A DNA stretch of 49,070 bases from Phycicoccus flavus (GTDB taxonomy: Bacteria; Actinomycetota; Actinomycetes; Actinomycetales; Dermatophilaceae): positions 1 to 49,070 of the forward strand of contig NZ_SAYU02000027.1 of assembly GCF_004025965.2 (NCBI RefSeq), read 5' to 3'. The position numbers and the translations under genes are program-made. The notes under the pieces were generated by a model that saw nothing but the letters and a program-made list of their open reading frames with translations, was not told the origin of the DNA and ran no database searches. This document shows, piece by piece, positions 8,117 through 15,948 of the stretch; position 1 is the stretch's first letter, and each line of letters opens with the position of its first letter.

Positions 8117-8698
8117 GTGGACATCACCGAGGTCATCCAGCACCAGCACGACGAGCAGCGCCGCGGGTTCGCCCACCTCGAGGAGTGGCCGCGGGAGGAC
8201 CACGAGGGCCTGGCCGCGATGTGGCGACGGCTCTCGGTGCTGCTCGAGACGCACGCCGAGGCGGAGGAGCGCTACTTCTACCCGCGGCTGCTCGACCTCG
8301 GGACCGGTGCCGCCGACGCCGACGACACGGCGGAGGAGGTCGAGGACGCCGTCCACGACCACAACGCGCTCCGGGCCGCGATCGCGCGGGTCGCCGAGGC
8401 CGAGGTGGGCTCGCAGGACTGGTGGACCGCCGTCGTCGACGCCAACACCGAGAACAGCGACCACATGGGCGAGGAGGAGCGCCAGGACCTCGCCGACTTC
8501 CGCCAGCAGGCCACCGTCGAGCTGCGCCACGAGATCGCCGTCGAGTTCCTGCGGTTCCAGGCCCGGCACTCGGCCGACGGGGTCGAGCCACGGGACAAGG
8601 ACCCGCAGGACTACGCCGCCCACGCCGGCACCGGCTCCCGGGCCGGGGGACGGGAGGGGGCCGCGCCCTCGGTCACGGCCTCCGACGACGCCGGCTGA
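8117..8698 (+). CDS. Hemerythrin-like (HHE) domain protein
   Basis: 193 residues. The helical region carries iron-ligand candidates typical of HHE domains: HQHDEQ near residue 8, LETHAEAEERYFYP (~50-63), VHDHNALR (~80-90) and ENSDHMGEEE (~115-125). Such proteins bind a diiron centre and are linked to oxygen or nitric-oxide handling. The C-terminal ~45 residues are Gly/Ala/Asp-rich and probably disordered. The GTG start is preceded by GAGAGGA. A stretch resembling a SigB-type promoter (GTGG, 14 bases, GGGTA) lies about 60 bp upstream, but the match is weak. Confidence 0.8.
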   Translation: MDITEVIQHQHDEQRRGFAHLEEWPREDHEGLAAMWRRLSVLLETHAEAEERYFYPRLLDLGTGAADADDTAEEVEDAVHDHNALRAAIARVAEAEVGSQDWWTAVVDANTENSDHMGEEERQDLADFRQQATVELRHEIAVEFLRFQARHSADGVEPRDKDPQDYAAHAGTGSRAGGREGAAPSVTASDDAG

Positions 8699-8727: not shown

Positions 8728-8755
8728 AACTGACATAATGTCGATTATCGGCGTT
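8728..8755 (-). other. dif: Candidate dif (XerC/XerD recombination) site
   Basis: Read on the minus strand, the site has an XerC-like arm AACGCCGATAA, a six-base centre TCGACA and an XerD-like arm TTATGTCAGTT. E. coli dif has arms GGTGCGCATAA and TTATGTTAAAT around TGTATA. The dyad ATAA-N6-TTAT and the full TTATGT of the XerD arm are identical, and 17 of 28 positions match overall. The segment is conspicuously AT-rich against its surroundings. It contains the TAA stop of the SSB-like gene. Coding-strand bias changes here, which supports a chromosomal dif; an element-borne Xer site is the alternative. Confidence 0.75.
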
Positions 8756-9140
8756 CTGCGGGAGCGGGGCCGGACGACGTCCCGGACCCCGGACGCCGAG
8801 GCGCCCTGCGCAGTCTGGCGGCCTCGACCTCGTAGCGGCTGACCGGCGCGCCGCCGGCGCGGAAGAAGCGGCGACGCAGCGCCCCCTCGACGACGACCCG
8901 GTCGCCCGCGCCGAGCCGGCCCGCGGCCCGGCGGGTGGCGCCGGACCAGCACGCGACGTCGATGGCGTCGACGCCGGCCCGGGCGACGCCCGGGCTGCTC
9001 GGGCGGGTCACCGTCACCCGGATGGTGTGCACGACGTCGCCGCTCGGCAGCGTGACGGCCTGGCCGACGCCGGTCACCCGCCCCACGAGCCGGACGCTGT
9101 TCTCGTCCTCGTCCCGGTCCTGCCGGCTGTCCGTGCCCAT
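8745..9140 (-). CDS. Single-stranded DNA-binding (SSB-like) OB-fold protein
   Basis: 131 residues with one OB-fold: NSVRLVGRVTGVGQAVTLPSG (~15-35), HTIRVTVTRPS, DAIDVACWSG, GDRVVVEGALRRRFF, ending in an Arg/Pro-rich tail. The acidic DDDIPF-type C-terminus of housekeeping SSB is missing, so this is an accessory paralogue with no obvious partner-docking tail. The start is supported by GGAGGGG just upstream (plus-strand 9145-9151). The last codons and the TAA lie inside the dif-like site. A role in terminus processing would be speculation. Confidence 0.75.
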   Translation of the reverse strand: MGTDSRQDRDEDENSVRLVGRVTGVGQAVTLPSGDVVHTIRVTVTRPSSPGVARAGVDAIDVACWSGATRRAAGRLGAGDRVVVEGALRRRFFRAGGAPVSRYEVEAARLRRAPRRPGSGTSSGPAPAERR

Positions 9141-9440
9141 GTCGTCCCCTCCGTCGTCCTGTTCCGGAGGCCAGCGTCGGCGCCGGGCCGGGGCCCGGAC
9201 CAGGGGGCGCCGGGGATCTGTGGACGACCGCGGCACGGAACAGCGGCTGTGGACGGACGCGTCCGGCCTCCTGTGACGCATGTGACGGAAGGGACGACAC
9301 GGGCCGTCCGAACGGGCCATTTTCGCCCTCGCCGCCCTGAAATCCGACGGATGTGCGCCTATCGTGGGGGCGGAACGCGATGCAGGGCGCGATCCGGGCT
9401 GCCTGCAGCCACAGACGATGTCGGGAAACGAGTCATTCGA
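9141..9440. other. Divergent intergenic region, SSB-like gene to M15 peptidase
   Basis: Contains the SSB gene's Shine-Dalgarno at the left edge and the M15 peptidase promoter at 9337-9365. The predicted 5' leader of about 70 bases carries no riboswitch signature I recognise. No convincing gene was found. Confidence 0.5.
9337..9365 (+). promoter_or_regulatory. Promoter of the M15 peptidase gene
   Basis: -35-like CTGAAA (9337-9342), a 17-bp spacer and -10 TATCGT (9360-9365). The start codon lies about 75 bases downstream, so unlike most transcripts here this one has a leader. Confidence 0.5.
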
Positions 9441-10925
9441 GTGCTGTCCTTCCTCCGGTCCACGCCGACCCGTTCGATCGGTGTGGGTCTCACGACCCTC
9501 GTCCTCGCGGCGGTGGTCATCCCCGCCGACGCGGCCGCGGGCAGCACCGCCACTCCCCTGCCGAGCGCCCTCGGCCAGTACACCGAGCCCGCCTCCGCCT
9601 CGCCGTCCCCCACCCCGACGACGAGCTCGCCGACGCCCACGACGAGCCCCAGCCCGAGCCGGAGCGCCGGCGCGACGCCGACCCCGAGCCCCTCCCCCTC
9701 GACGTCCTCGTCGTCGCCCGCCGCCCCGACGGCCACGCCGACCCCGTTCGAGCCGCCGCCGCCCCCCGGACCCGACGGCGGGCACGCCGAGCCCGACCAC
9801 CCGGCGCCGCTGTCCGGTGTCGTGCTGCAGGCCCAGATCGCCGAGGCCGCACGCATCTCCGCCATCCTGGAGTCCTCCTCCTCCGAGGTCGCGGCCGCGA
9901 TGAAGCGCATGGACGTCCTGTCCGACCGCTCGAACGCGACCCTGGAGTCGCTGGCCGCCGCCACCGACACCGAGAAGGCCGCCCGCCAGGAGGCGCGGGA
10001 CGCCCGCGCCGACCTCGTCACCCTCGAGGCACGCCTGACCCGGGCCCGCGCCGTCGTCAAGGACTGGGTCTTCGACGTCTACTCCGGAGGCGGCGACGGC
10101 GCCGACATCTCCGGGATGCTCGACGCCATGCAGTCCGGGGACGCCGACGCCGGCAACCCGCTCGGCGATCTCGCCTACATCACCGACCAGCGCACCCGGG
10201 CGCTGGCCGAGGTCCGCACCCTGACCGCCGAGCAGAAGCGCCTCACGGCCGCGGCCGTCCAGGCCGAGGACACGGCGGCCAAGGCCCGCGCGCGGATCGA
10301 GCGCGACAAGGACCGCCTCGACGCCCTCATGAAGGTGCAGCAGGCCCGCATCGGCGAGCTGCGCAAGCTGCAGATGGCCGAGGTCGACCAGGCCGGCCCC
10401 ATCGCCAACGCCCTCGTCGGCGCCCGGACCCCCGAGGCCCAGGCCGCCGCCACCCGGCTGCGGGCGGCCCTCAGCGGCTCGGTCGTCGAGACCGCCGACG
10501 TCGGCAAGCCGTGCTCGGACGACAGCGGCGAGTACCCCAACGGCCTCTTCCCGGGCTCGGCCCTCTGCCCGGTGTGGGGATCCCCCGGCGAGCGGCTGGC
10601 CCCCGACGCGGCCGCCTCCTTCAACGCCCTGAGCAAGGCCTACGCCGCCCAGACCGGCACACCGCTGTGCGTCACCGACTCCTACCGCTCGCTGTCCGAG
10701 CAGGTGTCGGTGAAGTCCACCCGCGGCGCGTTCGCCGCGACCCCCGGCACGAGCCGGCACGGCCTGGGCCGCGCGGTCGACATGTGCGGCGGGGTCGAGA
10801 GCTTCGGCTCGCCCGCCCACGAGTGGATGCGCGTCAACGCCCCGCTGTACGGCTGGTTCCACCCCGCCTGGGCCGACGCCGGGGGCCCGCTCCCCGAGCC
10901 CTGGCACTTCGAGTACGCCGGCTGA
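9441..10925 (+). CDS. Secreted coiled-coil M15-family (VanY-like) peptidase
   Basis: 494 residues. A signal peptide (~1-33, hydrophobic VGLTTLVLAAVV, cleavage near ADAAA) is followed by a Ser/Thr/Pro-rich linker (~45-110), a long alpha-helical coiled coil (~125-340, rich in A/E/R/K) and a C-terminal D-Ala-D-Ala carboxypeptidase domain. The zinc motif SRHGLGRAVD and the second site EPWHFEY are intact, so the peptidase should be active on peptidoglycan. The coiled coil resembles those of RipA/EnvC-type wall hydrolases, where it controls activity. The GTG start is inferred from the signal peptide; the frame is open upstream. Confidence 0.8.
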   Translation: MLSFLRSTPTRSIGVGLTTLVLAAVVIPADAAAGSTATPLPSALGQYTEPASASPSPTPTTSSPTPTTSPSPSRSAGATPTPSPSPSTSSSSPAAPTATPTPFEPPPPPGPDGGHAEPDHPAPLSGVVLQAQIAEAARISAILESSSSEVAAAMKRMDVLSDRSNATLESLAAATDTEKAARQEARDARADLVTLEARLTRARAVVKDWVFDVYSGGGDGADISGMLDAMQSGDADAGNPLGDLAYITDQRTRALAEVRTLTAEQKRLTAAAVQAEDTAAKARARIERDKDRLDALMKVQQARIGELRKLQMAEVDQAGPIANALVGARTPEAQAAATRLRAALSGSVVETADVGKPCSDDSGEYPNGLFPGSALCPVWGSPGERLAPDAAASFNALSKAYAAQTGTPLCVTDSYRSLSEQVSVKSTRGAFAATPGTSRHGLGRAVDMCGGVESFGSPAHEWMRVNAPLYGWFHPAWADAGGPLPEPWHFEYAG

Positions 10926-12608: not shown

Positions 12609-12968
12609 ATGGCAGAACGCAGCCTGCGCGGCAGCCGGCTCGGTGCCCTCAGCATGGAGACGGACGAGAACGTCGTTCCGTCGGAACGCCGGATCACCAC
12701 CTACCAGTGCCCCAACGGGCACACCATCGAACTGCCCTTCTCGGTCGAGGCCGACGTGCCTCCCGTGTGGGAGTGCCGGTGCGGCGCCGAGGCCAAGCTC
12801 GTCGGCGGTGGCCCCGAGCCGGAGACCAAGCCGGTCAAGCCCCAGCGCACCCACTGGGACATGCTGCTGGAGCGCCGGTCCATCCCCGAGCTCGAGGAGC
12901 TGCTCGAGGAGCGTTTGACCCTGCTGCGCGAGTCGCGCGGGGAGAAGACGAAGAAGAAGAGCGCCTGA
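12609..12968 (+). CDS. rbpA: RNA polymerase-binding protein RbpA
   Basis: 119 residues. RbpA binds the RNA polymerase beta/beta-prime subunits and principal sigma factors and stabilises the open complex. The zinc-site residues C34, H38, C56 and C58 lie in YQCPNGH and WECRCG. The C-terminal sigma-interaction domain is RTHWDMLLERRSIPELEELL, and the N-terminal tail MAERSLRGSRLGA is also conserved. GGGAGA upstream of the ATG serves as ribosome site. Transcription seems stress-controlled: an 18-spaced GGAAC/GTT promoter and a Crp-like box lie upstream. A long hairpin ends the transcript. Confidence 0.95.
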   Translation: MAERSLRGSRLGALSMETDENVVPSERRITTYQCPNGHTIELPFSVEADVPPVWECRCGAEAKLVGGGPEPETKPVKPQRTHWDMLLERRSIPELEELLEERLTLLRESRGEKTKKKSA

Positions 12969-13056: not shown

Positions 13057-13593
13057 TCAGTCGACGACCTCGCCCTGCACGACGTCCGGCGGGTCCCCCG
13101 GGCCACGACCGCCGGGTGAGCGGTGGACCGGCCCGCCGCCTGCCGCTCCCCCGCCGGGCCAGCCACCGCCGAGCGGACCGAGCAGCCGCCGCGCCACGAC
13201 CGCCTCGAGCCAGCGCCGGGTGACCGGGCGGGTCACCGGCAGGACCATGAAGAAGCCCGCCGCGTCCGTGACGAAGCCCGGGGTGAGCAGCAGCGTGCCG
13301 CCGACGAGGACGAGCGCGGCGTCCGCGAGCTGACGGCTCGGCATCCGGCCGCTGCGCAGGGCCTCGCGCAGCGCCGTCCAGGCCCGGCCGCCCTCGCGGC
13401 GGACGATGACGGCGCCGATGAGCGACTCCACGAGCAGCAGCCCGAACGTCGGCCACCCGCCGATGGTCCGGCCGACGGCGATGATCACCGCGATCTCGAC
13501 CATCGGGACCAGGAGGATGGCCAAAAAGATCCAGCGGAGGACCCCGCCGCGGCGCCAGCGGGCCGTGGTCGACGTCGCGCCGGCGGGGCTCAC
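13057..13593 (-). CDS. fxsA: FxsA family membrane protein
   Basis: 178 residues. FxsA proteins are small membrane proteins; E. coli FxsA relieves F exclusion of phage T7. The sequence IFLAILLVPMVEIAVIIAVG forms TM1, GGWPTFGLLLVESLIGAVIV TM2, and ALVLVGGTLLLTPGFVTDAAG is the family's conserved third segment. The C-terminal ~40 residues are Gly/Pro-rich and cytoplasmic. I chose the GTG that overlaps the ppm1 stop as GTGA; another GTG lies 12 bases upstream. It is the last gene of the kamD-to-fxsA string. Confidence 0.88.
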   Translation of the reverse strand: MSPAGATSTTARWRRGGVLRWIFLAILLVPMVEIAVIIAVGRTIGGWPTFGLLLVESLIGAVIVRREGGRAWTALREALRSGRMPSRQLADAALVLVGGTLLLTPGFVTDAAGFFMVLPVTRPVTRRWLEAVVARRLLGPLGGGWPGGGAAGGGPVHRSPGGRGPGDPPDVVQGEVVD

Positions 13594-14384
13594 AGGTCGT
13601 GCCACCGCTCCGGCCGGGCGGCGGCGTCGCGCAGCTGGGCCGCACGGTGACGCACCCCCCAGCCGGTGATCCGGCGCAACGACTCGGTGGCGACGTCCGG
13701 GCTCATCTTCGACTGCCCGACCTCGCGCTCGACGAAGGTGATCGGGACCTCGACGACGGTGAGCCCGCCGCGCACCGCGCGCCAGGTGAGGTCGGCCTGG
13801 AAGCAGTAGCCCTGCGAGGCGACGTCGTCCAGACCCATCGCGCGCAGCGCGTCGGCCCGGTAGACGCGGTAGCCGGCCGTCGCGTCGTTGACCGGCATGC
13901 CGAGCAGCACCTTGACGTAGAGGTTGCCGCCCACCGACAGCGCCTTGCGGTGCAGCGGCCAGTTGACGACCCGCCCGCCGCGCACCCAGCGCGACCCGAT
14001 GACCAGGTCGGCGTGCTCGGCGGCGTTGAGCAGGGCCGGCAGGTGCTCGGGCCGGTGCGAGCCGTCGGCGTCCATCTCGACGAGCGTGTCGTAGCCCGCC
14101 TCCAGGGCCCAGCGGAAGCCGGCGAGGTACGCGGCGCCCAGGCCCTCCTTGCGGGTCCGGTGCAGGACGTGCACCTGCGGGTCCGCGGCGGCGAGCTCGT
14201 CGGCGACGTCGCCGGTGCCGTCCGGGGAGGCGTCGTCCAGGACGACGACGTCGGCCTCGGGCAGGGCGGCGCGGACACCGCGGACCGCGACCGGGAGGGT
14301 CTCCCGCTCGTTGTACGTGGGGATGAGCACCGCCACCCGCTGGATGGGCGCTCGGTCAGGCTCGGGCAAGATCGCGGTCCTCAC
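13590..14384 (-). CDS. ppm1: Polyprenol-phosphate mannosyltransferase (Ppm1/DPM1-type GT2)
   Basis: 264 residues of the GT2 fold: VAVLIPTYNERETLP, VVVLDDASPDGTGD (nucleotide-binding Asp pair), VEMDADGSHRPEHLP (DxD-like metal site), SRWVRGGRVVNWP, and FVEREVGQSKMS near the C-terminus, all characteristic of dolichol/polyprenol-phosphate mannose synthases. It would charge polyprenol phosphate with mannose for glycolipid or protein mannosylation. In mycobacteria Ppm1 is partnered or fused with Lnt, and here it directly follows lnt. The GTG start overlaps lnt by 29 bases; a TTG at 14369 is an alternative. Confidence 0.88.
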   Translation of the reverse strand: MRTAILPEPDRAPIQRVAVLIPTYNERETLPVAVRGVRAALPEADVVVLDDASPDGTGDVADELAAADPQVHVLHRTRKEGLGAAYLAGFRWALEAGYDTLVEMDADGSHRPEHLPALLNAAEHADLVIGSRWVRGGRVVNWPLHRKALSVGGNLYVKVLLGMPVNDATAGYRVYRADALRAMGLDDVASQGYCFQADLTWRAVRGGLTVVEVPITFVEREVGQSKMSPDVATESLRRITGWGVRHRAAQLRDAAARPERWHDL

Positions 14385-15948
14385 TCGCGGGATCGGTCCG
14401 CGCCACCCTAGCGCGGCGGCCGTCACGCACCGCGCCCAGCACCAGCAGCGCGAGGAGCGCCGTGGCGAGGGTCTGCGGCACCGGTCCGAGCCGGTCCGAG
14501 GGCGTCGTCTCGCTGCGCACCGTGAGGTCGGCGGTGCGCTGCGCCGGGGTGAAGAGGCCGGTCTTCTCGGTGACGGTGCCGTCGGGGGCGACGAACCCGG
14601 AGACCCCCACGGTCGAGACGTGGACGACGCTCCGACCGTGCTCGATGGCCCGGATACGGGAGATGGCGAACTGCTGCTCGGACTCGGCGGTGAAGCCGAA
14701 GGTGGCGTTGTTGGTCTGGACGAGGATCAGCGAGTCCCGGCCGCCCGCGGCCGCCACGCTGTCGCGCATGAGCCCGTCGTAGGCGACCTCGAAGCAGATC
14801 GTCGGCAGGGCGGCGTACGCCCCGCCGGGGGCCGGGACCGTGAAGACCCCGATCCTGTCGCCGGCGACGAAGTTGCCCGCGAGGTCGGCGGCCGAGGTGA
14901 ACATCCGGAAGAACTCGCGGTGCGGGATGTACTCGGCGAACGGCACGGGGTGGAGCTTGACGTACTCCTGCGGCGGCCCGCCCGACCCGTCGTAGAACAG
15001 CGAGACGTTCGAGCTGCGGCCCGGCGGCTCGGCGAGGACGGCCCCGACGACGAGCGGGACGCCGACGGCCTCCTGCGCCTGCTGGATCTCCAGCGCGGCG
15101 TCGGCGTTGCGCAGCGGGTCGATGTCCGAGGCGTTCTCCGGCCACACGACGAGGGTGAGGTCCTGCGGCTCCTGCTCGGCCAGCGCCAGCGTGCCCCGGA
15201 CGTGGTTGTCGAGGACGGCGCGGCGCTGGGCGTTGAACTCGAGGCCGGCGGTCGGCACGTCGCCCTGGACGAACCCGACCCGCTCGGTGCGCCCGGCGGT
15301 GGGCAGGGAGATCGCGAGCGGGGCGAGGAGGACCGCCGCCGCGAGGAGCAGCGGGACCGGGGCCGCGAGCCGCGGCCCGCGGACGAGGCACGCGGCCCCG
15401 AGCAGCAGCAGGGTCCCGACGAGCGCCACCCCGAACGTCACGCCGGGCGCGCCGAGCCACCGGGCCAGGTGCGCCAGCGGGCTGTCGGCCTGGCTGAAGG
15501 CGAGCCGCGCCCACGGGAAGCCGCCGTACGGCGTCGTCGAGCGCGCCCACTCCTGGGCCACCCACCCCAGCGGGACGAGCGCGTACGCCGCCCGGAGGTG
15601 ACCGGCGGCGACGAGGCGACGGCCGGCGAACCCGGTGAGCGCCCCCTGGAGGGCGATGTAGAGGGCCTGGAGGACCGCGAGGGCGAACCAGGGCAGCAGG
15701 CCGACGTAGACGCCGGACCAGGACAGCGTCGGGACGAAGAACCCGAGGCCGGCCAGGAGGCCGAGGAGGAAGCCGCGGGGACCACCGGCGCGCAGGGTGA
15801 GCCCCCCGAGGAGGGCCACGCCCACGGGCGCGAGCCACCACAGGTCGTGGTCGGGGAAGGACAGCCAGAGCAGGAGGCCCGCGACGACGGCCGCGAGGCC
15901 CTGCGCGGGCAGGCGGAGCGCGGGGGGCACGCGCTCACGGTAGGTCAC
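14356..15948 (-). CDS. lnt: Apolipoprotein N-acyltransferase
   Basis: 530 residues. About eight hydrophobic segments (to ~residue 215) precede a periplasmic-side nitrilase domain. The catalytic triad candidates are E271 in VVWPENASD, K331 in YVKLHPVPFAEY and C385 in ICFEVAYDG. Lnt adds the third acyl chain to the N-terminal cysteine of lipoproteins. The GTG is chosen because it overlaps the kal stop as GTGA. It sits in the usual actinobacterial lnt-ppm1-fxsA order but is preceded, with overlap, by lysine-degradation genes. Confidence 0.92.
   Translation of the reverse strand: MTYRERVPPALRLPAQGLAAVVAGLLLWLSFPDHDLWWLAPVGVALLGGLTLRAGGPRGFLLGLLAGLGFFVPTLSWSGVYVGLLPWFALAVLQALYIALQGALTGFAGRRLVAAGHLRAAYALVPLGWVAQEWARSTTPYGGFPWARLAFSQADSPLAHLARWLGAPGVTFGVALVGTLLLLGAACLVRGPRLAAPVPLLLAAAVLLAPLAISLPTAGRTERVGFVQGDVPTAGLEFNAQRRAVLDNHVRGTLALAEQEPQDLTLVVWPENASDIDPLRNADAALEIQQAQEAVGVPLVVGAVLAEPPGRSSNVSLFYDGSGGPPQEYVKLHPVPFAEYIPHREFFRMFTSAADLAGNFVAGDRIGVFTVPAPGGAYAALPTICFEVAYDGLMRDSVAAAGGRDSLILVQTNNATFGFTAESEQQFAISRIRAIEHGRSVVHVSTVGVSGFVAPDGTVTEKTGLFTPAQRTADLTVRSETTPSDRLGPVPQTLATALLALLVLGAVRDGRRARVARTDPASEDRDLARA

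Follow-up and report, generated by a model that had tools for sequence, protein, structure and literature searches.

The 28-bp sequence in which a short SSB-like gene ends, within a 49,070-nucleotide stretch of Phycicoccus flavus DNA (the window), is almost certainly the chromosomal dif site, and the SSB paralogue belongs to a block of genes conserved at the terminus. The dif reading, held with high confidence, adds a further example to a well-known type of site, at which recombination would be expected by analogy with established systems. It is supported by the uniqueness of the 28-mer, by its conservation and by its place opposite dnaA in relatives.

Sequence and conservation of the dif site

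On the minus strand the site reads AACGCCGATAA-TCGACA-TTATGTCAGTT, with the two 11-bp arms and the six-base centre described in an earlier note on this DNA (Table 1). The arms are named XerC and XerD by analogy with E. coli dif. The earlier note had counted 17 of 28 positions identical to E. coli dif. We reproduced this count, and the ATAA-N6-TTAT core and TTATGT are common to the two sites. By itself this match is weak or moderately unusual, because 2 of 200 first-order Markov windows also reach 17. A comparison with an actinobacterial dif had also been proposed: 23 of 28 positions agree with the dif of Frankia alni (PMC3025954), a site that is itself predicted. The same scan gave a top value of 20 (once) among 200 Markov windows, and 18 at the second-best place in the real window. 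The site is a sharp AT-rich island, as had been noted, with a GC content of 39% compared with 82.5% across 200 flanking bases. A G/C count of 11 or fewer is reached by only three 28-mers in the window, every one of which overlaps the site.

Table 1 Features of the dif site and its surroundings in the window
Feature	Positions	Strand	Basis or remark
Whole 28-bp dif site, from XerC arm to XerD arm	8728..8755	minus	23/28 vs F. alni dif, single copy, conserved in genus
XerC-side arm AACGCCGATAA	8745..8755	minus	carries the SSB-like gene's stop codon as its final three bases
Six-base central region TCGACA	8739..8744	minus	sequence
XerD-side arm TTATGTCAGTT	8728..8738	minus	sequence
Short SSB paralogue, 131 aa, ends ...PAERR-stop	8745..9140	minus	PF00436
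Hemerythrin HHE-domain protein, other side of dif from SSB gene	8117..8698	plus	PF01814, 44.8 bits
VanY-like D-alanyl-D-alanine carboxypeptidase, conserved block	9438..10925	plus	PF02557
RbpA, RNA polymerase-binding protein, second dif-neighbourhood marker	12612..12968	plus	PF13397, 140.6 bits
FxsA-like gene and glycosyltransferase family 2 gene, conserved block	13057..14426	minus	PF04186, PF00535

Allowing up to three mismatches, the 28-mer has one match in the 4,259,791-base, 153-contig draft, the gaps of which may hide a second copy. Each of the 12 genomes of the genus (P. flavus included) has exactly one match, so the conservation in close relatives that the earlier note looked for is found in all of them. 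An alignment of the 12 sites with their flanks contains 23 invariant columns, all inside the 28 bp, and one nearly invariant flanking column outside it. Within the genus, conservation ends at the edges of the site. Variation inside the site includes one of the six central positions (G or C) and the outer end of the XerD-side arm.

Beyond the genus, we searched for a dif core of 19 fixed letters with at most two mismatches, using the reversed pattern as a control. Of the 149 family genomes, 140 contain the core, as do 100 of the 118 class genomes, the latter a sample drawn at 95% completeness or above; among good-quality genomes alone, the counts are 128 of 130 and 99 of 116. The reversed pattern gave no match in any family or class sample. 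For three genomes with a core match (G020, G068 and G096), positions are not among the matches listed. The absence of the core from 9 family and 18 class genomes counts against the dif reading. Ten of these 18 make up the whole sample of a single genus, g71, whose genomes measure 7–10 Mb; the other eight lie elsewhere. This genus may be Streptomyces. Streptomyces chromosomes are linear, and that identity would explain the missing core. No XerD match at E 1e-60 was found in the two g71 genomes examined, which counts in favour of the dif reading.

It is vanishingly improbable that the 28-mer is a chance AT-rich near-palindrome at a gene end. The ease with which random windows equal the E. coli match would allow it, but the agreement with the F. 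alni site and a conservation that extends through genus, family and class, with an empty reversed control, refute it. It is very unlikely that the site, instead of being the chromosomal dif, serves a mobile element as a dif-like attachment site for recombination by the host XerCD. More than one dif-like core does occur in 9 of the 149 family genomes (four each in G110 and G013), as such elements might leave behind; against this, the site is single in the P. flavus draft and in every genome of the genus, and similar genes surround it in the 11 relatives whose loci were fetched. The earlier note had reasoned that several copies flanking islands would indicate a mobile Xer element. We found no extra dif-like copy flanking an island in the draft (gaps remain), and a mobile Xer element was rejected because the site is single-copy there.

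The additional cores are found in G013, G016, G035, G047, G059, G073, G086, G108 and G110, and several have altered centres. They are possibly footprints of XerCD-using mobile elements, or they may have arisen by chance.

Chromosomal position and Xer recombinases

The window had been proposed to contain the chromosome terminus, and measurements in relatives bear this out. Twenty of 22 family genomes assembled as a single contig have dif nearly opposite dnaA, the arc between the two amounting to no less than 0.43 of the chromosome. An arc of this length is expected for 14% of random places, and the 22 genomes are related, hence not independent. Chromosome lengths were mostly rounded to 0.1 Mb, and the 22 genomes come from 24 on a single contig (G036 has no core match, and the place in G096 is not among the matches listed). 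The position applies to the relatives, the P. flavus genome being a draft in 153 contigs. Two exceptions count against the dif reading: an arc of 0.34 in G069 and of 0.19 in G002, a member of the same genus. In G002, dif is on C1, and its closeness to dnaA suggests a rearrangement or an assembly error.

GC skew shows no clear pattern or switch in the window profile, which also counts against the dif reading. In one relative (G008), no replichore contrast in GC skew was seen in 20 of about 204 possible 20-kb stretches. As an indicator of the terminus, skew was set aside as uninformative. The dif site places the replication terminus in a group of genomes where GC skew gave no signal, and RbpA, the SSB paralogue and xerD are suggested as marker genes by which the terminus could be located in draft assemblies from this family.

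The P. flavus genome encodes XerC- and XerD-like proteins that are the predicted cognate recombinases. The XerD-like protein (contig C78) scores 323 bits against an NCBIfam cut-off of 329.6, and the XerC-like protein (contig C99) 317 bits against 335.15. Both scores fall slightly short of the equivalog cut-offs but exceed that of the general Xer model, NF001399 (279). Replication and recombination would at times produce a dimer of the two sister chromosomes. With XerC and XerD bound to the 11-bp arms of dif, strand exchange across the central six bases would then split the dimer, and this exchange would most likely be activated by FtsK at the septum. Binding, strand exchange and FtsK activation are proposed here on the strength of established Xer biology. 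In mycobacteria, dif sites are resolved by the cell's own XerC and XerD, according to a review (PMC12719403).

By eye, the xerD-like gene of P. flavus has parA-like and scpA-like frames next to it. In 20 of the 22 single-contig family genomes, no more than 119 kb separates the best xerD match from dif, and of 17 genomes in which both xerD and the SSB gene could be placed, 12 have them on opposite sides of dif. Outside the family, 32 of 40 genomes of the class have xerD and dif on one contig. The distance is 120 kb or less in 15 of these 32 (ten of them at 13–15 kb, in one family) and 0.13–1.6 Mb in the remaining 17. Proximity of xerD to dif was not found as a topic among the titles of a limited literature survey.

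The SSB paralogue and its neighbourhood

The SSB domain of the gene beside the site, named in the earlier note, is confirmed by Pfam (PF00436, 36.2 bits, cut-off 26). The protein scores 32.2 bits with the ssb model TIGR00621, under its cut-off of 53.95, and its PAERR end has no acidic C-terminal tip. As judged from these features, it is a short SSB-domain paralogue and not a canonical SSB. A second, more diverged copy, 54% identical to it, is found elsewhere in the P. flavus genome (C121:1031-1534); the other 11 genomes of the genus have one match each.

The gene was said to end inside the XerC arm, and this is correct: its last codons, CGC CGA TAA, sit in the arm, the TAA (8747-8745) forming the final three bases. 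No gene lies between the two in P. flavus, and the SSB reading frame therefore enters dif and ends there, an example of a dif site that provides the stop codon of a gene. As a conserved device, the overlap was rejected. Contact between the SSB stop and dif is limited to 2 of the 12 members of the genus, P. flavus (G000) and G003, where the overlap is two bases; in the other ten the paralogue ends 1.4–3.9 kb away. The overlap looks incidental.

Among six relatives in which the gap between dif and the SSB paralogue was inspected by eye, the gap holds differing genes, and this slot appears as a small variable spot beside dif. A UvrA-like ATPase frame is seen in L033, L034 and L036, DUF3105-type frames in L026 and L031, and oxygenase-like and esterase-like frames in L035. 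Pfam assigned an ABC-type ATPase domain to the L036 frame and DUF3105 to that of L031.

The surrounding genes are much the same in the 11 fetched relatives, a comparison that the earlier note had proposed. The SSB gene was matched in all 11, the VanY-like, RbpA, FxsA and glycosyltransferase genes in ten each, a GDSL lipase gene in ten and an acetyltransferase gene in four. The glycosyltransferase is presumably Ppm1-like. For the VanY-like gene, the miss is in a relative whose contig starts just beyond the SSB gene. The best reading of this gene content is that dif probably sits inside a conserved terminus gene order.

A closer relationship can be imagined, a functional pairing of the SSB paralogue with dif. 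The SSB protein would act on single-stranded DNA, either at the site itself or at the terminus, and the gene would be kept adjacent to dif by selection. We consider this quite unlikely. Consistent with such a pair, all 12 genomes of the genus have a relative of the SSB paralogue at most 4 kb from dif, always on the same side and oriented toward the site, and in two other genera (G042 and G083) the paralogue ends about 4 and about 33 bases from dif. SSB matches were obtained in 112 genomes (110 of the family sample of 149, plus G009 and G010). In 93 of these, the gene and dif are on one contig; the other 19 are not so arranged, or their dif place is not among the matches listed. The distance in the 93 is at most 5 kb in 47, 10 kb in 59 and 100 kb in 78. 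Where it is within 60 kb (74 genomes), the side is the same in 71 and the orientation in 64. One core was used per genome, which left out the extra cores of nine genomes, and in G013 the core was chosen between cores of equal mismatch. Among 80 fetched loci with the SSB gene, the fetched stretch includes the dif core in 42 and not in 38, a number of these being short.

The functional pairing is, however, weakened by RbpA, which is about equally linked to dif. RbpA lies within 20 kb of dif in at least 57 of 84 genomes, and in the 72 genomes with both distances among the matches listed, RbpA is within 20 kb in 50 and the SSB paralogue in 47. Four genera in which the SSB gene is 41–73 kb from dif keep RbpA at 3–7 kb, and in other genera RbpA is more than 100 kb away while the SSB gene is close (both among the matches listed). 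The SSB gene lies 190–499 kb from dif in 15 genomes, one of which (G132) is a weak match, and with at most 30 first-look candidates scored per genome the paralogue went undetected in 39 of the 149 genomes of the family; dif is present in many of these 39. The remark in the earlier note that an SSB paralogue is encoded right at the site stands as to location. A conserved terminus gene order accounts better for this proximity, and for the shared stop codon, than a special SSB–dif pairing would. An SSB gene beside dif was not found as a topic among the literature titles and abstract openings listed.

Similarly improbable is a broader version, in which the terminus of the family is a conserved chromosome-segregation neighbourhood, where dif is bordered on one side, as a rule, by xerD and on the other by a dedicated short SSB paralogue, which acts there and is held in position by selection. 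If this were true, the SSB paralogue might act, for example, on single-stranded DNA where replication forks meet or during Xer strand exchange, and in P. flavus the parA- and scpA-like genes found together with xerD would belong to the same neighbourhood.

Comparison with known systems

The closest likeness of the P. flavus dif site is to actinobacterial dif, which Kono et al. (2011; PMC3025954) predicted in 66 of 66 single-chromosome genomes. The two agree in the length of 28 bp, the two 11-bp arms, the six-base centre and the CGCCGATAAT...ATTATGTCA core, as well as in single copy, terminus position (in relatives) and the presence of XerC and XerD. The five differences from the predicted F. 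alni dif lie in the centre (two) and at the outer ends of the arms (three).

With the E. coli dif/XerCD/FtsK system, the site shares the architecture, the ATAA-N6-TTAT core and TTATGT. It differs at the 11 non-identical positions, in overlapping a gene end and in a terminus for which GC skew gave no signal.

A mycobacterial dif has served in marker excision (Cascioferro 2010, cited from the review PMC12719403). That site belongs to a different genus, in which resolution by XerCD is reported, whereas the P. flavus site is known from sequence.

Single-recombinase systems differ more. XerS/difSL (PMC2731167) has one recombinase, whose gene is genetically linked to the site, and XerH (PMC3325230) also acts as a single recombinase, whereas P. 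flavus has two predicted recombinases. In contrast to an adjoining recombinase gene, xerD is separated from dif by tens of kilobases in the majority of family genomes measured.
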